This document shows, in pieces, positions 9,930-28,012 of a stretch of 64,000 bases of DNA. Source of the stretch: Dyella acidisoli. Lineage in GTDB: Bacteria > Pseudomonadota > Gammaproteobacteria > Xanthomonadales > Rhodanobacteraceae. The DNA is taken from NCBI RefSeq assembly GCF_030160295.1, contig NZ_BSOB01000025.1, positions 220,305 to 284,304 of the forward strand, in the 5' to 3' direction. The notes under the pieces are model-generated. The model did not search any database. It had not been told where the DNA came from and was given only the letters and a program-made list of their open reading frames with translations. A program made the position numbers and the translations under genes. How positions within the stretch are numbered: the first letter of the stretch is position 1; every line of letters begins with the position of its first letter.

Positions 9930-10667
9930 TTAGCGATGCCAGCCCAGCGTCGGCCCCGTCGCTTCGGCGGCGGCGCGCAACGCCTGCGTGGCGCGTTGCA
10001 TACGTGAGTATAGTCGGGGCAGCTCGCGCACAAGCGACGGCTGCTGGCAAAAGGCCACCATCAGACGCCATGGGCGCGGACGCCCCCAGGCATCGACGCT
10101 GCCATTCAGTGCTTCAGGAATGGCATCGTTCACTTCGTCGACGATGGCACGCAGCACGACGAACGGCAGGCCATGCTCCTGGGCAATCGCCGCAACGGCG
10201 GCGCTTTCCATGTCTACTGCAAACGCCGTGTAGTGCTGATGAGCGGCACGCTTGGCTGCGGAGGTCAGCAACGGCGAGGTAACGCTGAGCAGGGCGCCTT
10301 CCATATGGAGCGGCGCTGGAGCGGCAGTGAGCTGCTGTTGCAGACTGGCGCGCCAAGTGGAATCCGTCACATACGCGCGGCCTTCGTCATCCAATACGCG
10401 TTCCGGACAGAACAGCGCTCCGTTGTGCAGTTGGTCGTTGAGCGCTCCTGCTACGCCGAACACGGCCAACGCAGTTGCGCCGGCTGTAACCAATGCTTCC
10501 GCAGTGTGGCGCGCAGCCTTCGGTCCCATGCCGCTTATGCACAGCGCGGCGCCGTTAGTCAGTGCTGTGATGCTGCCTGGCGTTGCGGCGTGCGAAGTGA
10601 GTGTTTTGGCTTCCGATGCCAGCGCGACGACGATGCCGATGGCGCGAATGGCCGCGTTCGTGCTCAA
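9930..10667 (-). CDS. hpnG: Hopanoid-associated nucleoside phosphorylase HpnG
   Basis: About 245 residues of the PNP/MTA-nucleosidase fold. In the hopanoid pathway HpnG removes adenine from adenosylhopane to give phosphoribosylhopane. Landmarks are IGIVVALASEAKTL at the N-terminus, ALCISGMGPKAA (phosphate/nucleoside site) and AVDMESAAVAAIA with the conserved Met-Glu that binds ribose. The frame stays open far into shc, but the best start is the TTG at 10667, which overlaps the shc stop in TTGA and leads straight into the fold. Confidence 0.88.
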   Translation of the reverse strand: MSTNAAIRAIGIVVALASEAKTLTSHAATPGSITALTNGAALCISGMGPKAARHTAEALVTAGATALAVFGVAGALNDQLHNGALFCPERVLDDEGRAYVTDSTWRASLQQQLTAAPAPLHMEGALLSVTSPLLTSAAKRAAHQHYTAFAVDMESAAVAAIAQEHGLPFVVLRAIVDEVNDAIPEALNGSVDAWGRPRPWRLMVAFCQQPSLVRELPRLYSRMQRATQALRAAAEATGPTLGWHR

Positions 10668-12637
10668 GCCGCGGCCGATTGCTGCAACTGACGGTAGCGA
10701 GACAGCGCCCATAGCGGGAAGTACGCGGTGTAACCGTGATACTTGAGGTAATACACGCGTGGGAAGCCCGGCGCATTGTGCGAGGGGTGGAACCACAGGC
10801 CCTCGGCGTGCTGGTTGGCGAGCAGGAAATCGATGCCGCGACGCACCGACTCCGCATGCACTTCGCCCACCGCCAACTGCGCGAGCAAGGCCCACGCCGT
10901 GGATTGCGGTGTGCTCGCACCATGGTTGCTGCCGCGCAAAGCCGGATCGATGTAGCTATCGTTGGTTTCACCCCAGCCGCCGTCGGCGTTCTGGCGCGAG
11001 CGCAACCATTCCACTGCTTTGCGGATGTACGGCTGCTGCGGATCCTCGCCCGCCAGTGCGATGCCGGCCAGCACACTCCAGGTGCCGTAGATGTAGTTGC
11101 TGCCCCAGCGCCCCCAGAAGCTGCCGTCTTCCAACTGCGTGGTACGCAGATAGTCGATGCAACGACGCAGCACTTCGCGATCTTGTGGACGCGCCACCAC
11201 GCCCAGCGCTGCAACGATGCGACCCGATACATCTTCGGTCGGCGGATCGAGCAAGGCGCCGTGATCGGCGAAGGGAATCGCATTGAGGTAGTAGTACGTG
11301 TTGTCTGCATCGAACGCAGCGAAACCGCCGTTTTTCGATTGCAGGCCGATCATCCAGTCCATGGCGCGATCGATGTTCATGCGATGGCGGCCGGGTTCGC
11401 CGCGACGACGATCCTGGATATGCAACAGCGCCGCGGCGACGGCGGTGTCGTCGATATCCGGGTAGTACGCATTGTTGTACTGGAATGCCCAGCCACCTGG
11501 TGCCAGATCCGGCGCACGCACGGCCCAGTCGCCTTTCAGTTCCAGTTCCTGCTTCGAAACAAGCCAGTCGATCGACTTGTCGATGGCACCCTGCGTTTGC
11601 GCGCCATCGCTGGTATGCATCAGCGTCAGCGCACTCCACACGGTGTCCCAGATCGGCGATACGCAAGGCTGGCAGTACGCTGAGCCGTCGTCGCGATGCA
11701 CCACCAGCTTCTGGATCGAACGCAGGCAGGTTTGCCGTGCAGGATGGTCCTTCGGATAACCGAGCAGAGCCATCGCTTCAAGGCTGTTGACCATCGGCGG
11801 GAAGATCGCGCCGATGCCATCTTCGCCGTTGAGGCGCGGCATGAACCAATCCACGGCTTTCTTGACGGCGCGCTGCCGAATCGACTTCGGCATGAAGCGG
11901 TCGGCGAAGCGACCGATCTTATCCAATACAAGAAAGGTGCGATTGAGCAGGCCGCCGCGAACGAAATAGTGGTGTTCTTGCTCCGGCGGCGTGACGAACA
12001 GCTCGCGGATATGCACTTTGCGCGGATTCGCTGCCTTGGCCTTCAGCGAGCACAGAATCGTTAGCGGCACCAGCGTGGTACGCGCCCAGTACGAGATCTT
12101 GTCGATATGGAACGGAAACCAGCGCGGCAGCAGCATGATTTCCACCGGCACGTACGGCGTAGCGCGCCACGGTACCTGTTCGAACAGCGCAAGCAGGATG
12201 CGCGTGAACACGTTGGCCTTGGCGGCGCCGCCTTGCGCAAGGATCGCCTTGCGCGCGATGCGCATGTGCTCGGCTTCCGGATCGTCGCCCGCTGCCTTCA
12301 GCGCGTAATACGCCTTCACCGTGGCCGACAGGTCGAGCGCGCCACCGTGATATTGCGGCCAGCCGCCGTGTCCGTCCTTCACCTGGGTGGCGCGCAAGTA
12401 GCGCGCCATTTTTTCCTGCAGCACATCGTCGATGTCATCCATGAAATGCATCATCAGGATGTATTCGGCGGTGATGGTGCAGTCGGACTCCAGCTCGAAG
12501 CACCAATGGCCATCCTGGTGCTGACGCGCCAGCAAGGCGACACGGCCACGTTCGATCGCATCATCCAGTCCGCTCGCGGCGGCGTTCTGGAAAAGATCGG
12601 TGGTGGTCGTGGTCGTCTTGTGTGTAAACGAATTCAT
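10664..12637 (-). CDS. shc: Squalene-hopene cyclase
   Basis: A 657-residue monotopic membrane enzyme that cyclises squalene to hopene/hopanol. The catalytic acid motif DIDDTA lies at 394-399 (the DxDD motif of cyclases). Several QW-type repeats are visible, such as QDGHWCFELE near 41-50, DGSFWGRWG and ADGGWGETNDSY in the C-terminal half. The length matches the family. The start ATG overlaps the squalene synthase stop by 4 bp (ATGA) and the stop overlaps hpnG, so three steps appear translationally coupled. Confidence 0.97.
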   Translation of the reverse strand: MNSFTHKTTTTTTDLFQNAAASGLDDAIERGRVALLARQHQDGHWCFELESDCTITAEYILMMHFMDDIDDVLQEKMARYLRATQVKDGHGGWPQYHGGALDLSATVKAYYALKAAGDDPEAEHMRIARKAILAQGGAAKANVFTRILLALFEQVPWRATPYVPVEIMLLPRWFPFHIDKISYWARTTLVPLTILCSLKAKAANPRKVHIRELFVTPPEQEHHYFVRGGLLNRTFLVLDKIGRFADRFMPKSIRQRAVKKAVDWFMPRLNGEDGIGAIFPPMVNSLEAMALLGYPKDHPARQTCLRSIQKLVVHRDDGSAYCQPCVSPIWDTVWSALTLMHTSDGAQTQGAIDKSIDWLVSKQELELKGDWAVRAPDLAPGGWAFQYNNAYYPDIDDTAVAAALLHIQDRRRGEPGRHRMNIDRAMDWMIGLQSKNGGFAAFDADNTYYYLNAIPFADHGALLDPPTEDVSGRIVAALGVVARPQDREVLRRCIDYLRTTQLEDGSFWGRWGSNYIYGTWSVLAGIALAGEDPQQPYIRKAVEWLRSRQNADGGWGETNDSYIDPALRGSNHGASTPQSTAWALLAQLAVGEVHAESVRRGIDFLLANQHAEGLWFHPSHNAPGFPRVYYLKYHGYTAYFPLWALSRYRQLQQSAAA

Positions 12638-13803
12638 TGATGCTGTACTTCCTGTACATCAGCCGGTTCGCGCCACGCGAGATCGACGATGTGCGGGATG
12701 GAGCGCTTGGGCCAGGTGCGGGCGGGCGTGGAGGGTTCGCTCCATTCGGCCGTCAGCGGGGTCAGCGGCAGGCCGCGTGCGGTCGTGGCGAACAGCCAGC
12801 GCAGGCCGGCGTTCGACTTGCCCAGCAGACGCGTAAGCAGGATGGTGCGTGCCACCGCCTTGCGCGAGATCTTGACCTGCGTGCCGGCAGAGAAATCGAG
12901 ATTGTTCTGTAGGTTGCGCAACGTGAGCAGCGCCATGCCGATGGCCCATAGGCAGAAACGGCGAATGCCGGCGTGCTTGGTGGGAATCAGCAGGGTGTAA
13001 TCGAGCGCCTGACGCAGATGCGCGTGTGCGATACCCACGAGCTCGGACATGGTGGCCGCATAGCCGGCATTCTGCTTGCCTGCTTGTAGCGTTGCGAGCT
13101 TCACGCCGTGAAGCGCAAACATGTCCTGCGGCAGCCAGCAAGCGCCGCGTGTGCGGTCTTCCCACTGGTCCTTGAGGATGTTCACCATCTGCAGGCCCTG
13201 GCCGAACGACACGGCCAGACGCAGCATGGTGTTGCGGTGTGGCGCCAGCAGTGGCTCGAAATCGACGAATAGCTCGGTGAGCATTTCGCCGACCACGCCG
13301 GCTACGCAGTAGCAGTAGCGATCCAGGTCATGCAGCGTCGGCAGGCCTTGCAGGCCGGCCTTGCGCTGAAAGTCGTGCATGCCGTGCGACATGATGCGCA
13401 GGCATTTCACGATCGATGTCTGTTGCGACGGCGAAAGGCTGCGCGTCACTTCCAGCACCAGCGGCAGCTGCTGCATCAGATCGCGTTCGGCTTCCAGCGT
13501 GCTGTTCGACAGCAGCGGTGCGACTTCGTCCGCCACATCCTGTGCATCGGCATCACCGGTGACCGCATCGACGAACGCGTTTTCGAACGCGCGCTTTTGC
13601 TCGGCCGACAGTGCCGGCTCGTCTTCGATGGTGTCCGCGATGCGGCAAAGCAGATAAGCATTCGCGACGGCGCGCCGCAGCTCCGGTGGAAGCTGCGGGA
13701 TGGTCAGCGCAAAAGTTCGGGACACCTTCGGCAGGATCGCGTCCTGGTAAGTGTCGGCCTTCGCGCGTTCGGTGCCGGCGGTAGCAGGGTTCAATTCGAT
13801 CAT
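12634..13803 (-). CDS. sqs: Squalene synthase (eukaryote-type farnesyl-diphosphate farnesyltransferase)
   Basis: A 389-residue trans-isoprenyl diphosphate synthase of the squalene/phytoene synthase family that joins two FPP to squalene. The aspartate motifs are DTIED (57-61) and DQWED (212-216), and YCYCVAGVVGEML (163-175) is the signature block. Length and motif wording are those of one-enzyme squalene synthases rather than the HpnC/HpnD pair, and no hpnC, hpnD or hpnE is present. No C-terminal membrane anchor is obvious. ATG at 13803 gives the family N-terminus; the frame is open further upstream. First gene of sqs-shc-hpnG. Confidence 0.9.
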   Translation of the reverse strand: MIELNPATAGTERAKADTYQDAILPKVSRTFALTIPQLPPELRRAVANAYLLCRIADTIEDEPALSAEQKRAFENAFVDAVTGDADAQDVADEVAPLLSNSTLEAERDLMQQLPLVLEVTRSLSPSQQTSIVKCLRIMSHGMHDFQRKAGLQGLPTLHDLDRYCYCVAGVVGEMLTELFVDFEPLLAPHRNTMLRLAVSFGQGLQMVNILKDQWEDRTRGACWLPQDMFALHGVKLATLQAGKQNAGYAATMSELVGIAHAHLRQALDYTLLIPTKHAGIRRFCLWAIGMALLTLRNLQNNLDFSAGTQVKISRKAVARTILLTRLLGKSNAGLRWLFATTARGLPLTPLTAEWSEPSTPARTWPKRSIPHIVDLAWREPADVQEVQHQ

Positions 13804-14198
13804 GGATATGCCTCGAGCACCGGAATTATGACACACCCATACGGGTACGAATCCGACATGTTGGTTCCATGCGCGACGTTTACGCGGGCAGATGGCTTGG
13901 ATGATATGCGCACGATGCGGCTGGCTCGGGGCTGGCAGGGTGGGGTGGGCATCGCAATATGCTGAAGCACATAGGGTGCATGGACAAGTCTGCATCGTTC
14001 CAGAAGATGCAGCTCAGACCCTCAGCGTTGAAATGCTCATGAAAGGATGGCGACGGAAGGACGGTGTGCGCCGACCCGAGCGCTGCAGCATCGGTATGCG
14101 ATTTTCATCCATAATCGCCGGATGACCATCCCAACTTCTTCGAAGGCGCGTGTTCTCGTTCCCTGCGCGCCATGGTTCGTCATCAGGGTGATTGCATC
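13804..14198. promoter_or_regulatory. 395-bp divergent spacer between the sqs operon and hpnA
   Basis: No convincing ORF. Both the sqs-shc-hpnG unit (minus) and hpnA (plus) must be transcribed from here. I see an AT-rich block near 14100-14115 (ATTTTCATCCATAAT) that could supply a -10 element for hpnA, but no clear -35. No riboswitch or repeated element is evident. Confidence 0.35.
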
Positions 14199-15179
14199 GT
14201 GAGAGCGCTGGTTACCGGAGCCACCGGATTCGTCGGTTCGGCGATGGCGCGCCGTCTGTTGCGCGACGGCCACAGCGTCCGCGTGCTGGCGCGTGCGGGC
14301 TCGAGTCGCAGCAATCTCCAGGGCCTGGACGTGGAAGTGGTCGAAGGCGACCTTACCCGGCCGGAAAGCTTGCTGCCCGCTTGCGATGGCTGCGATGCGC
14401 TGTTCCATGTTGCCGCCGATTACCGCTTGTGGGCACCTGATCCTTCGGAACTCTACCGCGCCAATGTTGATGGCACGCGCGCGATTCTGGAAGCGGCCAA
14501 GCGTGTTGGCGTAAAGCGCATCGTCTACACCAGCAGCGTGGCCACGCTGGGCATTCCCAAGGACGGCACACCTGGCGGTGAAACCACGCCGGTCACCGTG
14601 GACGACATGATCGGCCACTACAAGCGCTCCAAGTTTCTGGCCGAGGAAGTGGCCCGGCAGCTCGCGGCGGAAGGCACACCGGTAGTGATCGTCAATCCGT
14701 CCACGCCAATCGGTCCGTACGACATCAAGCCCACGCCCACCGGCCGCATCGTGCGTGACGCGATGGCAGGACGCCTGCCGGCCTATGTCGATACCGGCCT
14801 CAACATCGTGCACGTGGAAGACGTGGCCGAGGGGCATTGGCTGGCGCACGAACACGGCGTGGTCGGCGAGCGCTACATCCTCGGCGGTTTCAACATGAGC
14901 CTGCGTGAAGTGCTGACCGAGATCGCCGATATCGCCGGGCGCTCGCCGCCGAAGGTGCGTCTGCCGCACGCAGCGGTGATGCCGGTGGCTTATGTTGCCG
15001 AAGCCTGGGCCAGGGTGACCGGCATGCATCCGATCGCTACGGTCGAAGAAGTGCGCATGTCCAAGAAACGCATGTTTTTTACCAGCGCCAAGGCAGAGCG
15101 TGAGCTGGGGTATACAGCGCGGCCGGCGCGCTTGGCGCTGGAAGATGCGGTGCGGTGGTTTCAGCAGCAGTCGCACTGA
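14199..15179 (+). CDS. hpnA: Hopanoid-associated sugar epimerase HpnA
   Basis: A 326-residue extended SDR (NAD-dependent epimerase/dehydratase) found in hopanoid loci; its exact substrate is not established. The Rossmann motif TGATGFVGSAMARRLL is at the N-terminus, the catalytic YTSS...HYKRSK gives the YxxxK pair, and VNPSTPIGPYDIKPTPTG is the family block. The preferred start is GTG at 14199 (MRALVTG), with AGGGTG just upstream; ATG at 14172 would add nine unsupported residues. It is transcribed away from sqs-shc. Confidence 0.92.
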   Translation: MRALVTGATGFVGSAMARRLLRDGHSVRVLARAGSSRSNLQGLDVEVVEGDLTRPESLLPACDGCDALFHVAADYRLWAPDPSELYRANVDGTRAILEAAKRVGVKRIVYTSSVATLGIPKDGTPGGETTPVTVDDMIGHYKRSKFLAEEVARQLAAEGTPVVIVNPSTPIGPYDIKPTPTGRIVRDAMAGRLPAYVDTGLNIVHVEDVAEGHWLAHEHGVVGERYILGGFNMSLREVLTEIADIAGRSPPKVRLPHAAVMPVAYVAEAWARVTGMHPIATVEEVRMSKKRMFFTSAKAERELGYTARPARLALEDAVRWFQQQSH

Positions 15180-15315: not shown

Positions 15316-16323
15316 TTATTTCTTCTGCTTGCGCCGCTCGAAAAACCGCAATACCGGCAACGCACACTTCACCAGGAACGGCATCGTAGTCGGCCGCAGC
15401 AGGCGTTGATCGTAGCCTGCAAAACGGCGATCGTTTTCACTGACACACGTTGCCATCAACTCCGCCACGCTCAAATCCTGCTCCGTCATGGACTGCGCGC
15501 CGGTGACGGTGAAGTTGTTATCCTGCGCGTGTTCGTTGCCGTCGCCATCCAGGCTCTTGGCGAGTTCCATGCGTTCCATCCCGAGGAACCACCACACGCG
15601 GAATACTTTCCATTCGAAGGCGATGCGCTGGAGCAGGTTGAGGTTCCTGCGATGCCACGCCACCCAGTTGGCGAACAACAGGATATGCCGGCATTCCTCC
15701 TGCATCACCGGCTCGAAGGTGTCGATCAGTTCGGGCGGAAACAGGCCTGAATCATGTGCCACCTTGAACAAGCCGAACGCGAAAAAGCTATCGATGCATT
15801 CGCTGTAACCCGTTACCAGATAGGCCCATTCCGGGTCTTTCGGATATTCGTACGGCGGCTCCGGCACCAGCGGAATGCCGTAGTGCTGCACCATCTTGGA
15901 AAGCACTTCCTTGTGGCGGTTTTCTTCCCACGCGTTCTGCGCCAGCGCGTTGCGCATCTCCGGATCGGTGATCGTGCGCGCGTAGGCAGCCATGCGCAGG
16001 CGGGCCTTGCCCTCGGTCTGCACGGCGATATCCCAGATCGGCAGCGAGGTGATGCGATGCAGGGCCGCTTCATCCAGCGTCGGCCATTTGAGCACCGACG
16101 GCCGATACGGGTTGAAGGTTTCTTCGAACATGCGGCACATCATCTGCTTGTGCATGTTCGAGCCGTACTTGAGACGTTCCCGCTCATTGCTCGACCAACG
16201 CCGCGTGCGCGTCTCGGATGCGGCGATGGTGGCTGCATCCGGCTCCCCTTCGGGCAGCACCGGCTCGTGATAGCCGGGCACTAGTGCTTCTGGGTCAAAA
16301 GCGTCGTGTTCGAACGTCATCAT
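15316..16323 (-). CDS. Ferritin-like diiron protein in the hopanoid operon
   Basis: A 335-residue, mostly helical protein with a complete diiron-carboxylate ligand pattern: Glu104, Glu134-x-x-His137, Glu175 and Glu210-x-x-His213. That E/ExxH/E/ExxH spacing is typical of ferritin-like oxygenases and R2-like proteins, not of storage ferritin. There is no signal peptide; the C-terminus ends in a basic RRKQKK tail that could favour membrane contact. Its start overlaps the hpnL stop by 4 bp and hpnK-hpnL are likewise coupled, so a role in hopanoid modification is likely (inference). The reaction is unknown to me; an O2-dependent hydroxylation or desaturation of the hopanoid side chain would fit. 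Confidence 0.8.
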   Translation of the reverse strand: MMTFEHDAFDPEALVPGYHEPVLPEGEPDAATIAASETRTRRWSSNERERLKYGSNMHKQMMCRMFEETFNPYRPSVLKWPTLDEAALHRITSLPIWDIAVQTEGKARLRMAAYARTITDPEMRNALAQNAWEENRHKEVLSKMVQHYGIPLVPEPPYEYPKDPEWAYLVTGYSECIDSFFAFGLFKVAHDSGLFPPELIDTFEPVMQEECRHILLFANWVAWHRRNLNLLQRIAFEWKVFRVWWFLGMERMELAKSLDGDGNEHAQDNNFTVTGAQSMTEQDLSVAELMATCVSENDRRFAGYDQRLLRPTTMPFLVKCALPVLRFFERRKQKK

Positions 16324-17345
16324 TGGTTCTCTTCAGATGGACGGCTGACCCGGGTGGAAGAACCCGCATACAACCTGCGCGTTTCGGCCCATTGCCAGGA
16401 GATCAGTGCCGGCACGCCGAACGCCACTTCGCGCATACGCTTGACCAGCGACAACGCAACGGCCGCTTCTGCCGGCAGGCCGATCATGTTGCCGAACAGC
16501 ACCAATCCGCCTTCTTGCACGCCAAGGCCGGCTGGCACTACGAAAATGATGTGACGCAGCGCCTGCGTGACGGCTTCAATCGCAATCGCATCCCATACGC
16601 TGATCGGATAGCCGAGCAAATGCAGCGCCAGCCAGGTTTCGAAACTGCCCACCACGTAGCCGAGGAACTGCCAGCCGGTCGCCACGATGAGGCGCAGCGG
16701 GTGCGAATATTGCTCGCGAATCTCCAGATCCAGATTCGTGCCGTCGATGAGTTCAGTGAGCTTGGAACGGCCGCCCAGCAATTTCTCCGCGAAGCCTTCC
16801 AGGCGCGAAAACACTTTGCCGTGGCGCAGGATGATGATCAGGAAGATCGGCAGCGGCAGGCTCGCGGCGAGGGCGGAGATCACCGTGCTGAAGGCACTGA
16901 TGCTTTGCGTCAGCTCGATCAGCAGGATGATGCCCAGCGCGGTGAACAGATACTGGTTCACCAGGGTCAGCAACACTTCCATGATCACGCTGGCCGCAGC
17001 AGCGGCACCGCCGATGCCGCGCCATTTCACCAATCGTATGCCGATGATCTCGCCGCCGATGTTTGCCACTGGCAGCAGGCGATTGCTGGCCTCGCGGATG
17101 GCGGCCACCCAGAAGAGAAACGGCAACGTAGCTTGCCGCTGCGGATCGCGCGGTGCGATCAATACGCGCCAGCCGATGACGTCGAACAACAGCGGCAGTA
17201 CATGGAACGGCAGCAACCACAGCAATGGCCAGCCGGCGCGATCGATGGCTGCGGCGATTTCGCCCCAACCCTGATGCGCCACCAGCGCGATGGCGACACC
17301 CAAACCGAGGATGCCGGCGATATAACTGAGCAATTTCATGTTCAT
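16320..17345 (-). CDS. hpnL: HpnL-type flippase-like membrane protein
   Basis: A 341-residue integral membrane protein of the lysylphosphatidylglycerol-synthase transmembrane (flippase-like, UPF0104) family with about eight hydrophobic segments. HpnL is conserved in hopanoid loci and is thought to move or handle hopanoid or lipid intermediates; the substrate is unproven. The segment VPAGLGVQEGGLVLFGNMIGL near the C-terminus is the family landmark. It is coupled by 4-bp overlaps to hpnK upstream and the diiron gene downstream. Confidence 0.88.
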   Translation of the reverse strand: MNMKLLSYIAGILGLGVAIALVAHQGWGEIAAAIDRAGWPLLWLLPFHVLPLLFDVIGWRVLIAPRDPQRQATLPFLFWVAAIREASNRLLPVANIGGEIIGIRLVKWRGIGGAAAAASVIMEVLLTLVNQYLFTALGIILLIELTQSISAFSTVISALAASLPLPIFLIIILRHGKVFSRLEGFAEKLLGGRSKLTELIDGTNLDLEIREQYSHPLRLIVATGWQFLGYVVGSFETWLALHLLGYPISVWDAIAIEAVTQALRHIIFVVPAGLGVQEGGLVLFGNMIGLPAEAAVALSLVKRMREVAFGVPALISWQWAETRRLYAGSSTRVSRPSEENQ

Positions 17346-18181
17346 GCTGTGACCGCCGCCGGATCGGAGAAGCCATCGCAGAGTTGGTAGCGTTCGGCGA
17401 TCACTTTGCGCACGCTCGGCGACAGCAACGCGGCGAGTTCGTCGGCATGCCGATACGCGGACATGCTGTCGGTAATGTGCCCGTGCGAGGCCGGGTGTAG
17501 ATAGACCTCGGACAGGCCATCTGGCAGCTTGCGCAAAATATCCAGCATCACCGTCTCGTCCATGCCGCCGCTATGGCGGAGGCCGAACACGTGATCGTTG
17601 TAGGCAACGCCCGCGCTATCCAGCCGCCAACGCATCAGCGCCAACCATGGTTTCAGCCACGGACCCATGCCGGGCTCCGAGGGCAGGCGGATGGCGCGCA
17701 CGCCGTATTCGCGTCCGATGGTCAGCATCAGTGTGAGGATGGTGGGATGCAGGTGGAAATGCTTGTGCGCATTGACGTGATCGAGCTTCAGCCCGGTCGC
17801 CGCGAACGCTTCGAATTGTGCGCGAATTTCGTCGGCAAGCTGACGTCGCACATGAGGCAGGAAGAAGAAGCGAAAACCGTTGCGCACCATGTTCGAATCG
17901 AACATGCCTTGACCATCTACCAGGTCGGGAATACGCGATGGTGAAAGCATCGCACGCCCATCGGCGAGTACCAGATGCAACCCTACGGCAAGGCCGGAAT
18001 TCTGTTTGGCGCGCGCCACGGCGTCGGCAACGGCTGGCGCTGCGACCATCAGGCTTGCAGCGCGCAGCACGCCGTCGCGATAGCCGCGTTCCACGGCTTC
18101 GTTGACAGCCTCATGCAAACCGAAATCGTCGGCAGTGACGATGAGGCGCGGACGCGTCGTTGGCGTGGCAGAGATTGGCAC
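17342..18181 (-). CDS. hpnK: Hopanoid deacetylase HpnK (YdjC-like)
   Basis: A 279-residue YdjC/ChbG-fold carbohydrate deacetylase. HpnK removes the acetyl group from N-acetylglucosaminyl-bacteriohopanetetrol made by HpnI. The metal-binding motif TADDFGLH is at the N-terminus, GLHLVL follows, and DHVNAHKHFHLHPT supplies the His cluster. The start is GTG at 18181 (MPISATP). It is the first gene of the hpnK-hpnL-diiron unit, with an extended palindrome just upstream. Confidence 0.9.
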   Translation of the reverse strand: MPISATPTTRPRLIVTADDFGLHEAVNEAVERGYRDGVLRAASLMVAAPAVADAVARAKQNSGLAVGLHLVLADGRAMLSPSRIPDLVDGQGMFDSNMVRNGFRFFFLPHVRRQLADEIRAQFEAFAATGLKLDHVNAHKHFHLHPTILTLMLTIGREYGVRAIRLPSEPGMGPWLKPWLALMRWRLDSAGVAYNDHVFGLRHSGGMDETVMLDILRKLPDGLSEVYLHPASHGHITDSMSAYRHADELAALLSPSVRKVIAERYQLCDGFSDPAAVTA

Positions 18182-18302: not shown

Positions 18303-19730
18303 TCAGGCTTCGTGTGCGCGCAAGAAACGGAAGAACTCCACGCCTTCACGCAGACGGCGCTTCATCATGTCCCAGCTCATCAGCATTTCTTTCACGATTT
18401 CCCAAATCTTCGACGGGCGGAAATAGAAAGCCCGGTAGAACTTCTCCACGCCGTGGAAAATTTCCTGCTTCGACAGATGCGGGTATTCGATCAGCGCCAA
18501 CTGCACGCCCTTGTCGTTGACGAGGTTGACCGCTTCGTTTTCCTTCAGCCAGCCGTTCTCAACCGCCTGCTTGTACAGCGAGGTGCCCGGGTACGGTGCC
18601 GCCAGCGACACCTGGATGGTGTGCGGATTGATTTCCTTGGCGAACTGGATCGTCTTGTCGATCGTTTCTTTCGTTTCGCCCGGCAAGCCAAGGATGAAGG
18701 TGCCATGGATGGTGACGCCGAGCTTGCGACAGTCTTCGGTGAAGCGGCGCGCGATGTCGGTGCGCAGGCCCTTCTTGATGTTGTGCAGAATCTGGTCGTC
18801 GCCCGACTCGTAACCCACAAGCAACAGGCGCAGACCGTTTTCCTTCATGATCTTCAGCGACTCGTAGGGCACGTTCGCTTTCGCGTTGCAGGACCAGGTC
18901 CAGCCCATGGCGCCAAGGCCGCGCGCGATCTCATGCACGCGCTCCATGTTGGAGCTGTCGGTGAAGGTGTCGTCGTCGAACATCAGCTCCTTCACTTCGG
19001 GCATGTTCTCCTTGATCCACTTCGCCTCGGCCAGCACGTTCGCGGCCGAGCGCGTGCGGTAGCGATGGCCGCCGACCGTTTGAGGCCACAGGCAGAACGT
19101 GCACTTGGAGCGGCAGCCGCGACCCGTGTAGATCGACACGTACGGATAGTTGAGATACCCGATGAAGTAATTGCTGATCTTCAGGTCGCGCTTGTAGATC
19201 GGCGCCACGAAGGGCAGATCGTCCATGTTCTCGATCATCGCGCGCGGCGGATTGTGCTGCACGGTGCCATCAGCCAAGTGGTAGCTGATGCCGGTGATGC
19301 TTTCGAACGGACGGCCTTCGGCTACTTCCTTGCAGGTGTAGTCGAACTCTTCGCGTGCCACGAAATCGATCGCGCGTGATGCGGTGAGCGAACCGGTGGG
19401 GTCCACCGCGACCTTCGCGCCGACCAGGCCGATCAGTACGTTCGGCTTGCGCTCCTTGAGCAGCTCGGCGAACTTGGCATCGGTGGGGAACGAAGGCGTG
19501 CTGGTGTGGATGATCACCAGGTCGTAACCCTCGGCGATCTTCAAGCTGTCTTCCACCGAGATCTCGTCGGCAGGCGCATCGAGCACGCGCGAGTCGGGGA
19601 CCATTGCCGCCGGCTGCGCCAGCCAGGTGGGATACCAGAAGCTCTTGATCTCGCGTTTGGCCTGGTAGCGCGAACCGGCGCCGCCATCAAAGCCATCGAA
19701 GGAAGGAGCTTGCAGAAAAAGCGTTTTCAT
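18303..19730 (-). CDS. hpnJ: Hopanoid radical SAM enzyme HpnJ
   Basis: A 475-residue radical SAM protein with an N-terminal B12-binding-like region (about 1-170), then the Fe-S motif CRSKCTFC with Cys206, Cys210 and Cys213. In Burkholderia HpnJ converts glucosaminyl-bacteriohopanetetrol to the cyclitol ether. GLPGETKETI and the block LVGYESGDDQIL are typical of this B12/radical SAM group. A GCAGGAG lies about 9 bases upstream of the ATG. With HpnI and HpnK it completes the cyclitol branch. Confidence 0.93.
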   Translation of the reverse strand: MKTLFLQAPSFDGFDGGAGSRYQAKREIKSFWYPTWLAQPAAMVPDSRVLDAPADEISVEDSLKIAEGYDLVIIHTSTPSFPTDAKFAELLKERKPNVLIGLVGAKVAVDPTGSLTASRAIDFVAREEFDYTCKEVAEGRPFESITGISYHLADGTVQHNPPRAMIENMDDLPFVAPIYKRDLKISNYFIGYLNYPYVSIYTGRGCRSKCTFCLWPQTVGGHRYRTRSAANVLAEAKWIKENMPEVKELMFDDDTFTDSSNMERVHEIARGLGAMGWTWSCNAKANVPYESLKIMKENGLRLLLVGYESGDDQILHNIKKGLRTDIARRFTEDCRKLGVTIHGTFILGLPGETKETIDKTIQFAKEINPHTIQVSLAAPYPGTSLYKQAVENGWLKENEAVNLVNDKGVQLALIEYPHLSKQEIFHGVEKFYRAFYFRPSKIWEIVKEMLMSWDMMKRRLREGVEFFRFLRAHEA

Positions 19731-19804: not shown

Positions 19805-20956
19805 CTACGGCGCTGAACCGTCGCCACGTGCATGCAATACCTGACCGCGCCATCTTACCTGCCAACCGGCGAGGGCGGCTGCCCATTCCATCAGCAATAA
19901 GGTGTCGCGGAGGGGAATCAACAGGACTTCATGCCAGGCGAAGGCTTGATCGCTGATGCGCCGCTGCAAAAAGTGTAGCAAAACCCGCGCGGCGCCACCG
20001 AGCAGAGTTAACCCCGCGGTGATCGGCCCTGGTGCCAGGGATAGTCCCAGCAGCAATAACGGTGACGTAAAACACACAAACGTCATGGCGAAACCGGCGG
20101 GTGCAATCGAACGGATGGTGCGCAGCCAGCGCAGTTCGTGCGACCACAAATCTTTCAGCTTGCTTTCGCCGACATCCGTGCCGACGACCACATCCGACAG
20201 CACCGTGCGCAATCCGGCGCGGCGGGTCAGCTCGCCCAGCCAGAAATCGTCGGCCAACGTGTCGCGCAGTGCTTCGAAACCGCCAATCGTCTGCAACACA
20301 TCGCGACGCAGGGCAATGGTCGAGCCGAATGCAAAGCGCGTGGAACCGAATGCATGTGAAAGCTTCACGGAAGGTGCGAACCAGTCGTCGATGAATAGAC
20401 GGCCGAGCCGCGACCAGAACGAAGGTGTTGGGATGCCGTAGTAGAGGCAGGTAACGATACCCACGCCGGGATCGGCCAGCGGTGCGGTGACACGCGTCAG
20501 ATAGTCGGGCCTTACATGGATATCTGCATCGGCCAGCACCAGCAAATCATGTTGTGCATGCGGCAGCATGTTCATGAGATTGCTGACCTTGAAGTTCGCG
20601 CCATGCACGCGCGGATCGACGGCCAAGGCGATGGAACGCTGCGGGAATTCCAGGCGCAGGCGCTCGACCACGGCGATAGCCGAATCATCCGGATCGCGCA
20701 CGCCGAACACCAGTTGGTAATCCGGATGCGTCTGCAGGCAGAAACTGCGCAGGTTTTCGTACAGCCTGGGCTCGGCACCATGCAGCGGCTTGAGTACACT
20801 CGCCGGCTGCGGCGGGTTGGCAGTGGGAGCTTGGCGTGCCTTTCGCAATCCTTTCATCGCAGCCCATAGCGCGACCCAGGCATAGCCTGTCGCGGCAAAT
20901 GCGAGTGCGATGCCTAATGCACGAGGCAAGGTGTCGACCAACCAACTCAAGGACAT
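19805..20956 (-). CDS. hpnI: Hopanoid glycosyltransferase HpnI
   Basis: A 383-residue membrane-bound family-2 (ceramide-glucosyltransferase-like) glycosyltransferase. HpnI adds N-acetylglucosamine to bacteriohopanetetrol. An N-terminal hydrophobic anchor (about 8-35) is followed by SVLKPLHGAEPRL, the DxD-type motif LADADIHV, and ELRWLRTIR (a Q/RxxRW-like motif); two to three hydrophobic segments close the protein. ATG at 20956 was preferred over an in-frame TTG seven codons upstream. It runs 5' to hpnJ on the same strand. Confidence 0.9.
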   Translation of the reverse strand: MSLSWLVDTLPRALGIALAFAATGYAWVALWAAMKGLRKARQAPTANPPQPASVLKPLHGAEPRLYENLRSFCLQTHPDYQLVFGVRDPDDSAIAVVERLRLEFPQRSIALAVDPRVHGANFKVSNLMNMLPHAQHDLLVLADADIHVRPDYLTRVTAPLADPGVGIVTCLYYGIPTPSFWSRLGRLFIDDWFAPSVKLSHAFGSTRFAFGSTIALRRDVLQTIGGFEALRDTLADDFWLGELTRRAGLRTVLSDVVVGTDVGESKLKDLWSHELRWLRTIRSIAPAGFAMTFVCFTSPLLLLGLSLAPGPITAGLTLLGGAARVLLHFLQRRISDQAFAWHEVLLIPLRDTLLLMEWAAALAGWQVRWRGQVLHARGDGSAP

Positions 20957-21038
20957 AGACGTTAATGCTACCGGCAATCAGTCGACACGAAGCGTGCCCA
21001 CATGGGGGCCGTTCCTCGATCATGCAAGAGGGCGCGCG

Positions 21039-21639: not shown

Positions 21640-22667
<1,028 letters not shown>

Positions 22668-22668
<1 letters not shown>

Positions 22669-23759
22669 TGGAAGTCACCGCCAGCGCTCCCGCCAAGCTG
22701 GTTCTCCTCGGCGATTACGCGGTACTGGAAGGCGCGCGCGCACTGGTACAGGCCGTGGATCGTCGCGCCAACGTACGTATCGTTGCGCGCGAGGATCATG
22801 CATGCGACGTGTATGCACCCGATCTTGGCATCCACGGCGCGCGTGCACTGATCGATCAGAACGGCGAGTGGCAGTGGCAGTGCGATGAAGCAAGCAAGGC
22901 CAAGCTGACGCTGGTCGATCATGTGTGGCATGGCATGCTGCGCGAAGGCCTCGTGCCGACGTCGGGCAAAGGTTTCGATCTGCATCTTGATACGTCCGGC
23001 TTCTTTCATACGGACGGCGTCTCGAAGCTCGGGCTTGGTTCGAGCGCCGCGCTGACCGTGGCGCTTGCTTCAGCCTTGGCAACGTATGCCGGTCACGATG
23101 AGGTGATCGCCGATCGCACGCAATGGATGCGCCGGCTGCTGCACATGCATGGCGATTGGCAAGGTGGCCGCGGCAGTGGTGTCGATGTGGCGGCAAGCGT
23201 GGCGGGTGGCTTGATCGGCTATCAGCTGGTTGGTCAGGCGCGCGAGCCCACTTACGAAGCCATGTCGACGGATGGCCTGCATTGCCTGTTCGTGTGGTCG
23301 GGCCAGTCCGTGTCCACCAGCAATTCGTTGCTGCGGCTGGCGCAATGGCGTCAAGGCCATGCGGACCAATATGCCGCGCATATGAACGAACTGAGCACCG
23401 TTTCCGTGGCTGCGATCGATGCGCTGAAGCGGCAGGACATGCCATCTTTCATTGGCCTTACAAAAGAATACGCCCTGGGGTTGCAGCGTTTTGGTGCCGC
23501 GTGTGGTCTGGAAATCTATTCTCCCGCACAAAAACAGCTGGCCGATATGGCTTCCGGCACCGATGTCAGCTATAAGCCTTGCGGCGCGGGCGGCGACTTC
23601 GGAGTTGTTTTTGCCGAAAACGCGGAAAGGTTGGCGACATTTGGACGCGTCATTGTTTCGGCCGGTATGCACGTCGTACCCCTGGGGCTTGATTCCTGTG
23701 GGGTTAGTTGCCATATGCGCCCGGATGCGACCTTTTCCCCCGCAAGGATTTTGACGTGA
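22668..23759 (+). CDS. mvaK2: Phosphomevalonate kinase
   Basis: A 363-residue GHMP kinase. It begins MEVTASAPAKLVLLGDYAVLEGARA, the family N-terminus; the ATP loop is SKLGLGSSAALTVALASAL (about 125-143), and the C-terminal KPCGAGGDFGVVFA is the GHMP motif 3. It is assigned as phosphomevalonate kinase because mevalonate kinase is present in the following fusion gene and the decarboxylase is the preceding gene. ATG at 22668 overlaps the mvaD stop (TGATG). Confidence 0.88.
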
Positions 23760-23853
23760 TCACAGCCCCCCACTGCGTTATGGCGCGTGTGCCGTATGCC
23801 AAGTCGTAACGCAGAGCCTGTGACTTTCGACCTATCACGGAGTGCTTAAGGCT

Positions 23854-26136
23854 ATGAGCGCCGAATCTTCGAGTGCCGAACGGTCCCGATTTCCCGCTTT
23901 CTACAAACTCTCGGTATCCGACCGCGTACGCATCATTCATGAGCGTGGCTGGCTGTCGGCCGAGGATTATCAAGCGCTCGTCTCCGGCGAGCACACGCTG
24001 AAGATCCACAAAGCCGACAAGATGATCGAGAACGTCGTCGGCGTGATGGGTCTGCCGGTTGGTCTTGGTCTCAACTTCCTCGTCAACGGCCGCGATTACA
24101 TCGTGCCGCTGGTGGTGGAAGAGCCCTCCATCGTTGCTGCGCTTTCATCCGCTGCGAAACTGGTGCGCGGCACTGGTGGCTTCACCGTTGAAAGCACAGA
24201 ACCGGTATTGATCGGCCAGGTACAGGTGGTGGACGTGCCGCATCTGGCGCACGCCAAATCGGCGCTGCTGCAGCGTAAGGATGAAATCCTCAACCTCGCC
24301 AACAGCCTGCACCCGCAGATGGTGGCGCGCGGCGGCGGCGCACAGGATCTGGAAGTGCACGTGCATCCGCGCCCAGAAGGCGGCGATATGCTGGTGCTGC
24401 ACCTGCTGGTCGATACGCGCGACGCGATGGGCGCTAACCTGGTCAATACCATGTGCGAAGGCATCGCCTCGCTGGTGGAAACGATGACCGGCGGGCGCGT
24501 CTTTCTGCGCATCCTGTCCAACCTTACCGACCGATCGATGGTGCGCGCGCGTTGCGTGATTCCTGCGGACCAACTCACCGGCAAAGGTTTCGAAGGTGAG
24601 GAAGTTCGCGACGGTATCGTGCTCGCAAACGAATTCGCCAGCATCGATCCGTACCGCGCAGCCACGCACAACAAAGGCATCATGAACGGCGTGGATGCCG
24701 TGGCGCTCGCCACGGGTAACGACTGGCGCGCGATTGAAGCGGCGGCACATGCCTATGCCGCGCGCGGTGGCCGTTACACGTCGCTCACGCGCTGGTACAA
24801 GGGTGAGAAGGGCGAGCTGATCGGTGAACTCGACATTCCCATGAAGGTCGGCACGGTCGGCGGTCCGCTGCAGTCCAATGCCACGGTGGCGCTCAATCTG
24901 CGCCTGCTCGGTGTGAAGACTGCGCGCGAGCTGGCCGAAATCATGGGTGCGGTGGGCCTCGCGCAGAACTTCTCGGCATTGCGCGCGCTGGTCACCGAAG
25001 GTATTCAGCAGGGTCACATGACGCTGCATGCACGCAGCGTTGCCGTGGCGGCAGGCGCCACGCCGGAAATCTTCGACACGGTCGTGGAGCGCTTGGTGGA
25101 AACTGGCGAGATCAAGATCTGGAAGGCGCAGGAGATCGTCGAACAGGTGCGCAAGGAGTCGCGCGGCGTGCCGGCCACAACGGCTGAGCATCCATCGGTC
25201 GATCACCGTGCTTGCGGTCACGGCAAGATCATCCTGCTCGGCGAGCACGCAGTGGTGTATGGCAGCCATGCCGTAGCCGCGCCAGTGCCGCTAGCGGTGC
25301 GTGCAGTGGCGCAAGACACCAAGTCAGGCGGCGTCGACATGTTCATTCCGCGCTGGGGCGTGGAATACCGCCTGCACCGCGATCCGGCGCACCGCGATTC
25401 GTTCCAGCGCTCACTCGGCATCATCTTTGATGAGCTGCAGCTCACCGATCGCTCGATGCGTATCGAAGTGTTCCCGAATGTGCCGCGTGCGATGGGTCTG
25501 GGTGGTTCGGCGGCGATGGCTGTCGCCGTGATCCGTGCGCTCGATCAGCACTACAAGCTGAACTTGAGCGATGAAGAGATCAATGCCCTGGCTTTCCGCT
25601 GCGAGGAAGTTGCGCACGGTTCGGCCTCGGGCATCGACAACACGGTTGCTACCTACGGCAAGCCTCTGCTGTATAAGCGCGCCGGCAAGAAGGGCGAAGC
25701 GCCGATGGTGCAGGAACTGCATCTGCCCAAGCGCATCCCATTGGTGATCGGCATCAGCGGCAAAGAAAGCCTTACCGCGGTGACGGTCGGCAAGGTACGT
25801 ACGGCGTGGCAGCGCAATCCTGCGTTGTACGACGGCATCTTCCAGCAGATCGACGCACTCACGCTGCAAGGCGTGGAGGCGATGCAGCAATACGATCTGG
25901 AACGCCTGGGTGATCTGATGAACATCTGCCACGGCCTGCTCAACGCGTTGCGCGTATCGAGCTGGGAAGTGGAAGAACTGGTGCAAATCGCGCGCGAACA
26001 TGGCGCGCTGGGCGCCAAGCTTACGGGTGGTGGTGGCGGCGGTTCGATCGTCGCACTGTGCCCGCAGAACCGCGAAAAGGTAGCGGCAGCGATTCGCGAT
26101 GCCGGCTACCAGGCGATGGAGGTCGACATTGGATAA
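23854..26136 (+). CDS. Fused class II HMG-CoA reductase / mevalonate kinase
   Basis: A 760-residue bifunctional protein. Residues 1 to about 440 are a class II HMG-CoA reductase: ENVVGVMGLPVG, the glutamate loop EEPS, the lysine in THNKGIMNG, the aspartate of DAMGAN, and the catalytic histidine in LHARS. From about residue 450 the protein is a complete mevalonate kinase: GKIILLGEHAVVYG, GLGGSAAMAVAV and KLTGGGGGGS. The joint is a short linker (about 435-450) with no stop or frameshift, and both halves keep all the catalytic motifs I can check. It reduces HMG-CoA to mevalonate and phosphorylates it. ATG at 23854 has CACGGAG upstream. Confidence 0.94.
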   Translation: MSAESSSAERSRFPAFYKLSVSDRVRIIHERGWLSAEDYQALVSGEHTLKIHKADKMIENVVGVMGLPVGLGLNFLVNGRDYIVPLVVEEPSIVAALSSAAKLVRGTGGFTVESTEPVLIGQVQVVDVPHLAHAKSALLQRKDEILNLANSLHPQMVARGGGAQDLEVHVHPRPEGGDMLVLHLLVDTRDAMGANLVNTMCEGIASLVETMTGGRVFLRILSNLTDRSMVRARCVIPADQLTGKGFEGEEVRDGIVLANEFASIDPYRAATHNKGIMNGVDAVALATGNDWRAIEAAAHAYAARGGRYTSLTRWYKGEKGELIGELDIPMKVGTVGGPLQSNATVALNLRLLGVKTARELAEIMGAVGLAQNFSALRALVTEGIQQGHMTLHARSVAVAAGATPEIFDTVVERLVETGEIKIWKAQEIVEQVRKESRGVPATTAEHPSVDHRACGHGKIILLGEHAVVYGSHAVAAPVPLAVRAVAQDTKSGGVDMFIPRWGVEYRLHRDPAHRDSFQRSLGIIFDELQLTDRSMRIEVFPNVPRAMGLGGSAAMAVAVIRALDQHYKLNLSDEEINALAFRCEEVAHGSASGIDNTVATYGKPLLYKRAGKKGEAPMVQELHLPKRIPLVIGISGKESLTAVTVGKVRTAWQRNPALYDGIFQQIDALTLQGVEAMQQYDLERLGDLMNICHGLLNALRVSSWEVEELVQIAREHGALGAKLTGGGGGGSIVALCPQNREKVAAAIRDAGYQAMEVDIG

Positions 26137-26728
26137 CACAGAACTGGAACGCCAGGAGTGGCGTGATTCCAATGAGGTGGTGTCGTTCGACGACGAGCCG
26201 TTGGTGCTGGTCGATAGTGACGATCGCGAGATCGGTTTCCTCGACAAGGCATCGGCGCACGTCGGCAAGGGCACGTTGCATCGCGCGTTCTCGCTGTTCG
26301 TGTTCAACACCAAAGGCGAATTGCTGCTGCAGCAGCGTGCACCGGGCAAGCGTTTGTGGCCGGGTTATTGGTCGAACACCTGTTGCAGTCATCCGCGCCG
26401 TGGCGAAACGATCGACACCGCGATCCATCGTCGTTTGAAGGAAGAACTGGGGCTGGCCTGTCCGCTGCAGTACCTGTTCAAGTTCGAGTACCAGGCGCAA
26501 TTCGATGCGGACGGTGCCGAGCACGAGCTGTGCTGGGTGTATGCCGGTCGCAGCAACGATGCGCCGACGGTGAACGTGAATGAGATTTCAGGTCTCCACT
26601 ACATCGCACCGGATGCGCTGGACGCGGAGATCGCAGCGAAACCTGAAGCCTTCACGCCCTGGTTCAAGATCGAGTGGGAACGGATTCGTCGCGAACATCC
26701 CGAAGTGTTCGCACCGCTCAAAGGTTAA
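26129..26728 (+). CDS. idi: Isopentenyl-diphosphate delta-isomerase, type I
   Basis: A 199-residue Nudix-fold enzyme that interconverts IPP and DMAPP. The active-site cysteine lies in SNTCCSHPRRGE, with REL/EE Nudix residues in AIHRRLKEELGL and the catalytic glutamate in EHELCWVY. The most likely start is TTG at 26129 (MDNTELERQEW), inside the last codons of the fusion gene, with GGAGG six bases upstream; the overlap implies coupled translation. Confidence 0.92.
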   Translation: MDNTELERQEWRDSNEVVSFDDEPLVLVDSDDREIGFLDKASAHVGKGTLHRAFSLFVFNTKGELLLQQRAPGKRLWPGYWSNTCCSHPRRGETIDTAIHRRLKEELGLACPLQYLFKFEYQAQFDADGAEHELCWVYAGRSNDAPTVNVNEISGLHYIAPDALDAEIAAKPEAFTPWFKIEWERIRREHPEVFAPLKG

Positions 26729-26869: not shown

Positions 26870-28012
26870 TTGGGTATCCCTCTTATTCAACAGACCACCA
26901 TCGCTCAATACATCATCAAGAAGAAGCTGAGCGGTCAAAAGCGCTACCCGCTGGCGATGATGTTGGAGCCGTTGTTCCAGTGCAATCTGGCTTGCGCGGG
27001 TTGCGGCAAGATCGATCAACCGAAGGAAATCCTGCAAAAGCGCATGAGCGTCGAACAGGCGCTGGCTGCGGTGGACGAGTGTGATGCGCCGGTCGTTTCG
27101 ATTCCCGGCGGCGAGCCGCTGATCCACAAGGATCTGCCGAAGATCGTCGAAGGCATCGTCGCGCGCAAGAAGTTCGTGTACCTGTGCACCAACGCGATCC
27201 TGATGCCCAAGCACATCGACGAATACAAGCCGTCGCCGTACTTCACCTGGTCCGTGCATCTGGATGGCCTCGAGAAGCAACATGACAAGTCCGTGTGCAT
27301 GGATGGCGTGTTCGAGAAAGCTGTCACTGCAATCAAGCTGGCGCTGTCGAAGGGCTTCCGCGTGACGGTGAACTGCACGCTGTTCAACAGCGAGCCGCCG
27401 GAAGAAGTCGCCGACTTCTTCGACTATGCGATGGAACTGGGTGTGGAAGGCATCACTGTGTCGCCAGGCTACAGCTATCAGCACGCACCGCGCCAGGACG
27501 TGTTCCTGGGCCGCACCGAGAGCAAGCAGCTATTCCGCGACATCTTCAAGATTGGCAAGGAACGCAAGCGCAAGTGGGCGTTCAACCAGTCGGCGATGTT
27601 CGTGGATTTCATCGCGGGCAATCAAAGCTACCAGTGCACGCCGTGGTCCAACCCGACCTACAACATCTTCGGTTGGCAGAAGCCGTGCTACTTGCTGGTC
27701 GATGAAGGCTACGCCAAGACCTACAAGGAATTGATGGAAGACACCGAGTGGGAGAAATACGGTGTAGGCATCAATCCGAAGTGCGACAACTGCATGGCGC
27801 ACTGCGGGTTCGAAGGTACGGCCGTGAACGACATGTTCGCGCATCCCTTGAAGGCGCTGAAGGTGTCGATGTTCGGTCCGCGCACCGATGGCCCGATGGC
27901 GCCGGATCTGCCGGTGAAGTACGGCAATCGCGCTGACGCCACCGCGATCCACATTCCGATCAGCTCGATCCAGCGCCGCAGCGCAGAGACGGGTACCGAA
28001 GCGAACCATTAA
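26870..28012 (+). CDS. hpnH: Adenosylhopane synthase HpnH (radical SAM)
   Basis: A 380-residue radical SAM enzyme that adds the adenosyl group to hopene to form adenosylhopane, the first side-chain step. The Fe-S motif is CNLACAGC (Cys38, Cys42, Cys45), followed by IPGGEPLIHKDL, and a C-terminal cysteine-containing region CDNCMAHCGFEG. The start is TTG with a good Shine-Dalgarno. The product is the substrate of HpnG, encoded 16 kb away on the opposite strand. Confidence 0.96.
   Translation: MGIPLIQQTTIAQYIIKKKLSGQKRYPLAMMLEPLFQCNLACAGCGKIDQPKEILQKRMSVEQALAAVDECDAPVVSIPGGEPLIHKDLPKIVEGIVARKKFVYLCTNAILMPKHIDEYKPSPYFTWSVHLDGLEKQHDKSVCMDGVFEKAVTAIKLALSKGFRVTVNCTLFNSEPPEEVADFFDYAMELGVEGITVSPGYSYQHAPRQDVFLGRTESKQLFRDIFKIGKERKRKWAFNQSAMFVDFIAGNQSYQCTPWSNPTYNIFGWQKPCYLLVDEGYAKTYKELMEDTEWEKYGVGINPKCDNCMAHCGFEGTAVNDMFAHPLKALKVSMFGPRTDGPMAPDLPVKYGNRADATAIHIPISSIQRRSAETGTEANH

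Follow-up and report, generated by a model that had tools for sequence, protein, structure and literature searches.

A predicted diiron protein encoded beside hpnL in Dyella acidisoli is a candidate oxygen-dependent hopanoid-ring desaturase

Hopanoids are bacterial counterparts of cholesterol, and genes for their synthesis are clustered in a stretch of 64,000 nucleotides from Dyella acidisoli (RefSeq assembly GCF_030160295.1, contig NZ_BSOB01000025.1, positions 220,305 to 284,304), here called the window. Its minus strand carries the block hpnI-hpnJ-hpnK-hpnL-X, where X is the gene that we deal with in this work (Table 1). Next to the block, hpnA runs on the plus strand; it is followed by a gene of the squalene synthase family, by shc and by an hpnG-like gene, and the presence of hpnH in the window implies extended hopanoids. 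The ATG of X shares four nucleotides with the TGA of hpnL (ATGA) and hpnL overlaps hpnK in the same manner (17345..17342), so the overlaps behind the translational chain hpnK-hpnL-X proposed in the initial annotation of this DNA are borne out at both junctions. That annotation regarded X as a diiron protein performing some O2-dependent change of the hopanoid and named no reaction. The function class is supported by our results, and we narrow the reaction, by inference, to removal of two hydrogens.

Table 1. Coordinates of X, its putative ligand codons and the neighbouring hopanoid genes in the window
Feature	Position	Strand	Remarks
X, ferritin-like diiron protein, candidate hopanoid-ring desaturase	15316..16323	-	335 aa, ATG start
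Glu104 codon	16012..16014	-	helix 97-115
Glu134..His137 codons (ExxH)	15913..15924	-	helix 121-148
Glu175 codon	15799..15801	-	helix 164-192
Glu210..His213 codons (ExxH)	15685..15696	-	helix 197-226
ATGA overlap, hpnL stop / X start	16320..16323	-
hpnL, flippase-like membrane protein	16320..17345	-	TIGR03476, 339 bits, cut-off 196
hpnK	17342..18181	-	TIGR03473, 384 bits, cut-off 233
hpnJ, radical SAM	18303..19730	-	TIGR03471, 835 bits, cut-off 578
hpnI, glycosyltransferase	19805..20977	-	TIGR03472, 459 bits, cut-off 310
hpnA	14172..15179	+	TIGR03466, 505 bits, cut-off 368
Squalene synthase family protein, start maybe further in	12634..13995	-	Pfam SQS_PSY 199.5 bits; under NCBIfam cut-offs
shc, squalene-hopene cyclase	10664..12637	-	TIGR01507, 796 bits, cut-off 431
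hpnG-like phosphorylase, ORF as listed probably begins too early	9930..10895	-	TIGR03468, 172 bits, slightly below cut-off 187
hpnH, adenosyl-hopene transferase	26870..28012	+	TIGR03470, 536 bits, cut-off 225

The six residues put forward earlier as metal ligands of X (E104, E134, H137, E175, E210 and H213, in the pattern E/ExxH/E/ExxH) are all present. None of them varies in an alignment of 43 sequences, which comprises the protein of the window, 35 homologues of X and seven homologues from a sister family, X2, picked from loci collected in the analysis. The X2 proteins among them are only 29-32% identical to X, and invariance of this degree goes beyond a chance motif. In the AlphaFold2 model of X (pLDDT 87.7) the ligands fall on four successive helices, one motif per helix, in keeping with the diiron site proposed earlier. 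The 50 rows listed in a structure comparison are exclusively R2, R2-like oxidase, protein 60, VlmB or soluble methane monooxygenase (sMMO) hydroxylase entries; by this ranking the model places X with O2-activating diiron proteins. Both the ligand set and the four long helices of ferritin-like diiron carboxylate oxygenases are found in X.

X is a new family within this known fold class. Foldseek returned no match at E <= 0.001 (the best had 0.012), and no NCBIfam model, those for hpn genes included, matched at E <= 1. The four Pfam matches at E <= 1 are ferritin-like models, all under their curated cut-offs; they include AurF (PF11583, 16.7 bits, cut-off 29.6), Ferritin_2 (PF13668, 20.4 bits, cut-off 24.7) and Rubrerythrin (PF02915, 15.7 bits, cut-off 22.8). 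At the same level Pfam gave neither PF04116 (fatty acid hydroxylase / sterol desaturase) nor a family of soluble acyl-acyl carrier protein (acyl-ACP) desaturases. The latter enzymes are not among the 50 structural rows listed either, which does not exclude likeness of fold. Among solved structures, a dynamin-like protein was the sole match of the profile search (E 0.14) and was judged to be due to chance; a weak match of the single X sequence to a tRNA hydroxylase-like protein (E 0.46) was likewise set aside. No membrane span is predicted in X, and its C-terminal helix 313-334 is basic and hydrophobic. The protein is probably soluble and perhaps membrane-associated.

R2-like oxidases (R2lox; 6qrz, 7qbk, 4ac8) and ribonucleotide reductase R2 share 9-14% identity with it in their structural rows, at Z scores near the level where the tool advises caution for helical bundles, and unlike them X resides among hopanoid genes. 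The azoxy synthase VlmB (8wvr) and the AurF-type N-oxygenases (PF11583) differ in that no amine substrate is evident in the step proposed below.

The distribution of X is closely tied to hopanoid synthesis. We scored genomes as cyclase-positive when they exceeded the cut-off for squalene-hopene cyclase; four genomes of the window's own family with weak matches under the cut-off were scored negative. In this family (Rhodanobacteraceae, 233 genomes) X occurs in 38 genomes and the cyclase in 49. All 38 carriers of X are cyclase-positive, none of the 184 cyclase-negative genomes has X (Fisher p 4e-34, kinship ignored), and 11 of the 49 cyclase-positive genomes lack X. A gammaproteobacterial sample of 369 genomes yielded four matches, one of them X2-like, all accompanied by cyclase. 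Among 385 alphaproteobacterial genomes there were 27 matches, 25 of them with cyclase; the cyclase was not matched in G776 and G956. We further took the 80 best named loci from 352 stretches encoding X, and cyclase was found in each of the 50 whole genomes tested from these. In Acetobacteraceae, X or X2 is present in 158 of 299 genomes; when 20 of the remaining 141 were tested, 16 had the cyclase. These counts show X to occur with squalene-hopene cyclase, to be nearly confined to hopanoid producers and yet to be dispensable for some of them. The co-occurrence foreseen in the initial annotation is thereby confirmed, and the patchy presence among producers is as expected for an accessory modification of hopanoids.

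Physical linkage to hpn genes was followed by reading gene content of the loci by tblastn with nine window proteins. In 33 of the 38 X-positive Rhodanobacteraceae genomes, no more than 20 kb separate X from a cyclase gene, and X adjoins hpnL in 29 of the 30 loci fetched (L001, L005-L033). The same neighbourhood occurs in all ten window-type loci (L034-L043), which come from nine Dyella genomes and one metagenome-assembled genome of another name. Outside these groups linkage is less regular. Of 70 further named loci (L044-L113, up to 21 kb), eight clearly contain hpn genes or shc (in Massilia, Caballeronia, Noviherbaspirillum and Herminiimonas) and a few more do so weakly; no hpn genes or shc were seen within the same span at most Paraburkholderia and all Acetobacteraceae X loci examined. 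X is also found on 13 plasmid records, all from Burkholderiaceae. Six of these regions were fetched and three show hpnA, or the order hpnI-hpnL-X-hpnJ; in the plasmid-borne region of B. cenocepacia no hpn gene was seen with the nine proteins. In the alphaproteobacterial sample, 5 of 25 cyclase-positive genomes have X and the cyclase no more than 20 kb apart, as do two of three other gammaproteobacterial genomes. Sixteen more regions were fetched, partly selected for short distance between X and shc, and seven of them contain hpn clusters. One alphaproteobacterial region reads hpnI-J-K-X-X2-L-A...shc, two regions read hpnA-L-X-(K)-J-I, one carries a stop-interrupted X2 together with hpnH, hpnG, shc, hpnA and X, two gammaproteobacterial regions have X beside hpnL, and one from the own family reads X-L-K-J-I...X2. 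As X is present in hpn clusters of Gamma-, Beta- and Alphaproteobacteria, the association recurs in distant lineages. Linkage to hpn genes as in the window is frequent in some lineages and is missing at the Paraburkholderia and Acetobacteraceae loci just mentioned.

Position of X downstream of hpnIJKL or hpnKL, in the window and in many Rhodanobacteraceae, raises the question whether it performs an oxidation within the HpnI/K/J pathway, which builds the cyclitol-ether head group. HpnJ (TIGR03471 over cut-off) was sought in a selected subset of 80 genomes. Within the own family it does track X, being present in all ten X-positive genomes tested and in only 1 of 11 cyclase-positive genomes without X. 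Over the whole subset, though, the two come apart in both directions: HpnJ occurs in 40 and is missing in 13 of 53 genomes with X or X2, and it occurs in 12 and is missing in 15 of 27 cyclase-positive genomes without X. Twelve of 25 alphaproteobacterial X carriers lack HpnJ over the cut-off, and 11 of 16 X-negative Acetobacteraceae possess it. Some of the twelve may be assembly gaps; partial HpnJ matches in G656 (132 bits), G1032 (137 bits) and G1103 may reflect assembly breaks. Another of the twelve is G715, where X, a stop-interrupted X2 and the cyclase share one 20-kb stretch of a 5.4-Mb contig. Besides, according to PMC12583986 (section 3.3) the ether is reached in three steps, those of HpnI, HpnK and HpnJ. 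X is thus not simply a step of the cyclitol-ether pathway, and we hold a role within it to be very improbable. The tie proposed for X stands for hopanoids in general and does not depend on HpnJ.

In a tree of 65 rows, X (50 rows) and the sister family X2 (15 rows) split with full support. X2, too, occurs in hpn clusters and at times next to X; several Acetobacteraceae loci have it immediately after X, and in Acetobacteraceae bacterium KSS8 the two are fused into a single 650-aa reading frame (L100, 9989-11941). In Rhodanobacteraceae a second match, 33-34% identical to X, occurs in 7 of 233 genomes, and the three X2 of this family included in the tree nest among those of Acetobacteraceae, which suggests transfer. 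Within one gammaproteobacterial family, seven of 38 genomes have X2-like genes, as do all six of one genus. Adjacency and fusion of the paralogues bear on another explanation, in which X would have no catalytic role or would serve under stress (storing iron, handling peroxide or sensing) and be kept with hopanoid genes. Ferritin-like folds do include such proteins, and Ferritin_2 and Rubrerythrin are among the weak Pfam matches. Nevertheless, the full E/ExxH/E/ExxH set is kept in both families, X is nearly restricted to hopanoid producers and the paralogues stand side by side or are joined, so that we consider this the least probable of the alternatives.

Some X2 loci lie apart from hopanoid genes. 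At L165 and L166 (G447 and G444, of the window's own genus) no hpn gene was seen within about 10 kb of X2; these two X2 are about 75% identical to that of Asaia and nested among Acetobacteraceae, and judging by sequence their horizontal transfer is probable. Similarly, no window-type hpn gene was seen within about 10 kb of the X2-like gene at L157 (G136) and L158 (G1051), two loci of the gammaproteobacterial family mentioned above. G136 also has a second cyclase-type match under the cut-off (253 bits).

What change of hopanoids could be made by X? The available sections of a 2025 survey of 54 alphaproteobacterial strains (PMC12583986) report unsaturated hopanoids at 49-82% in seven acetic acid bacteria (82% in A. 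pasteurianus and 58% in Asaia siamensis, its Table 3), 37% in Skermanella aerolata, 43% in Afipia broomeae and 0-4% in the remaining producers. Of the two positions, Delta6 is the commoner and Delta11 the rarer one, and the survey states the double-bond genes to be unknown. Delta6 is reported there on both bacteriohopanetetrol (BHT) and aminotriol of Afipia, as would suit an enzyme that works on the ring system irrespective of head group. In B. cenocepacia, hopanoids are annotated as bacteriohop-6-ene cyclitol ethers, with position assigned by analogy (available text of PMC8560942). In searches of open-licence hopanoid literature, X was not found to be named in the consulted parts of PMC12583986, PMC6460317, PMC8560942, PMC5462960, PMC3910546, PMC5100885 and PMC11844350; as far as their available text goes, an Acidobacteria paper does not mention "unsaturated" and a Frateuria genome paper treats only general hopanoid content.

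The carriers of X correspond to these producers at the level of genus or species (Acetobacter, Asaia, B. cenocepacia). All 49 genomes from the genus to which Acetobacter sacchari belongs have X, and five of the 49 have X2. B. cenocepacia has an X 52.6% identical to that of the window, and Asaia supplies five of the best 80 of 352 X loci, which were found through X and so give no rate. Separability of X from HpnJ and occurrence of Delta6 across head groups together fit a change of the ring system, and two paralogous families in hpn clusters parallel the two double-bond positions. On this basis we favour loss of two hydrogens over the gain of one oxygen (+16) for the product of X, and we suggest, with the balance tilted slightly in favour of this assignment, that X is an O2-dependent hopanoid-ring desaturase, most likely forming Delta6. 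X2 probably acts on the same lipid class at another ring position, perhaps Delta11, the obvious candidate. The full proposal, in which X (Delta6) and X2 (Delta11) are the two missing hopanoid desaturases and constitute a paralogous soluble diiron pair, is more tentative, and we would not yet bet on it.

Hydroxylation is known among diiron enzymes of this fold, which speaks for the main rival: X would be the side-chain hydroxylase behind the additional hydroxyl group(s) of bacteriohopanepentol and -hexol (C-31, C-30). The genes for pentols are likewise unknown according to the survey (PMC12583986, section 4.1.2.6, available text), and pentols accompany the unsaturated products in both Acetobacteraceae and B. 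cenocepacia (PMC12583986, PMC8560942). At the level of lipid profiles, nevertheless, the two traits separate. Pentols are frequent where unsaturation is 0-1%, with 90% in Sphingomonas mali, 44% in Nitrospirillum and 77% in Enhydrobacter, while Afipia broomeae combines 43% unsaturation with 0% pentol (PMC12583986, Table 3). Pentol distribution is, by our own estimation, better matched by a "sterol desaturase" gene that the same source places in two thirds of Rhodospirillales, half of Sphingomonadales and no Hyphomicrobiales. Moreover, two ring double bonds match two paralogues. A side-chain hydroxylase is therefore unlikely in our opinion.

The "sterol desaturase" itself leads to the last alternative, namely that the hopanoid desaturase is this membrane-bound protein and X oxidises hopanoids or their precursors otherwise. 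Members of the superfamily are known for sterol desaturation. They were proposed for the same double bonds in Methylovulum psychrotolerans in 2019 (POZ53527; PMC6460317) and in Alphaproteobacteria in 2025 (WP_003625306.1 of Acetobacter; PMC12583986). POZ53527 is described as an integral membrane protein with His motifs, unlike X with its E/ExxH/E/ExxH set and no predicted span. However, in the available data of PMC12583986 the match to unsaturation is not one to one, Afipia broomeae making Delta6 hopanoids without the gene, and the Acetobacter gene is located outside the hpn cluster, whereas X (in the window) and X and X2 (in several lineages) lie inside. We find this explanation quite improbable, less so only than those of a cyclitol-ether step or a stress protein.

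If X is a ring desaturase, its reaction could proceed as follows. As a non-haem diiron enzyme, X would withdraw two hydrogens from the pentacyclic ring system of the hopanoid with the help of O2 and two electrons, the latter possibly supplied by ferredoxin or another carrier of general use. The reduced diiron site would react with O2 to form a peroxo-diferric species, which would abstract one hydrogen at C-6 or C-7 of ring B. When the second hydrogen leaves as well, the products would be the ring-B Delta6 alkene (bacteriohop-6-ene polyols) and water, as in soluble acyl-ACP desaturases. These are soluble diiron enzymes that carry out O2-dependent removal of two hydrogens, and we propose them as a working model for X, with the difference that their substrate is bound to acyl carrier protein while that of X would be a triterpenoid lipid. 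The C-terminal helix could hold X on the membrane, and coupling to hpnL hints that X works close to where lipids are handled. The metal content, the use of O2, the choice of desaturation over hydroxylation, the ring position, the stage of the substrate and the electron donor are all inferred.

Some further features of the region should be recorded. The squalene-forming gene is nearest to TIGR01559 squalene synthase (130 bits, under cut-off), with 58 bits for HpnC and 80 for HpnD. The source genome (G000) has two squalene-hopene cyclases over cut-off, with 796 and 700 bits (C25:230980 and C46:291884), the second outside the window. Between hpnI and hpnH, mevalonate genes lie within the hopanoid region (21640-26728, plus strand): diphosphomevalonate decarboxylase, a phosphomevalonate-kinase-like gene below cut-off, a fusion of HMG-CoA reductase with mevalonate kinase, and IPP isomerase. 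The fused enzyme, adjoining the hopanoid genes, is a 764-aa frame (23842-26136, plus strand) with the reductase at residues 5-397 (TIGR00532, 422 bits) and the kinase at residues 460-739 (TIGR00549, 236 bits), both over cut-off.

Unsaturated hopanoids, which are present in Burkholderia and certain methanotrophs too, are under discussion as environmental markers. They are major hopanoids in all seven acetic acid bacteria of the 2025 survey (PMC12583986, Table 3) and increase in the cold in Methylovulum psychrotolerans (PMC6460317). A candidate gene X, together with a paralogue X2 for a second position, makes the question of double-bond genes directly testable. If our assumptions are true, X would bring a new substrate class to a known fold class and, together with X2, would provide the first genetic marker for unsaturated bacteriohopanepolyols. 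To our knowledge, this chemistry on sterols has so far been found only with membrane-bound or Rieske-type enzymes; here an X/X2 pair, in one instance fused, would act on a pentacyclic triterpenoid. Finally, unsaturated hopanoids would be tied to O2 through a diiron enzyme, which would bear on the reading of the geological record.

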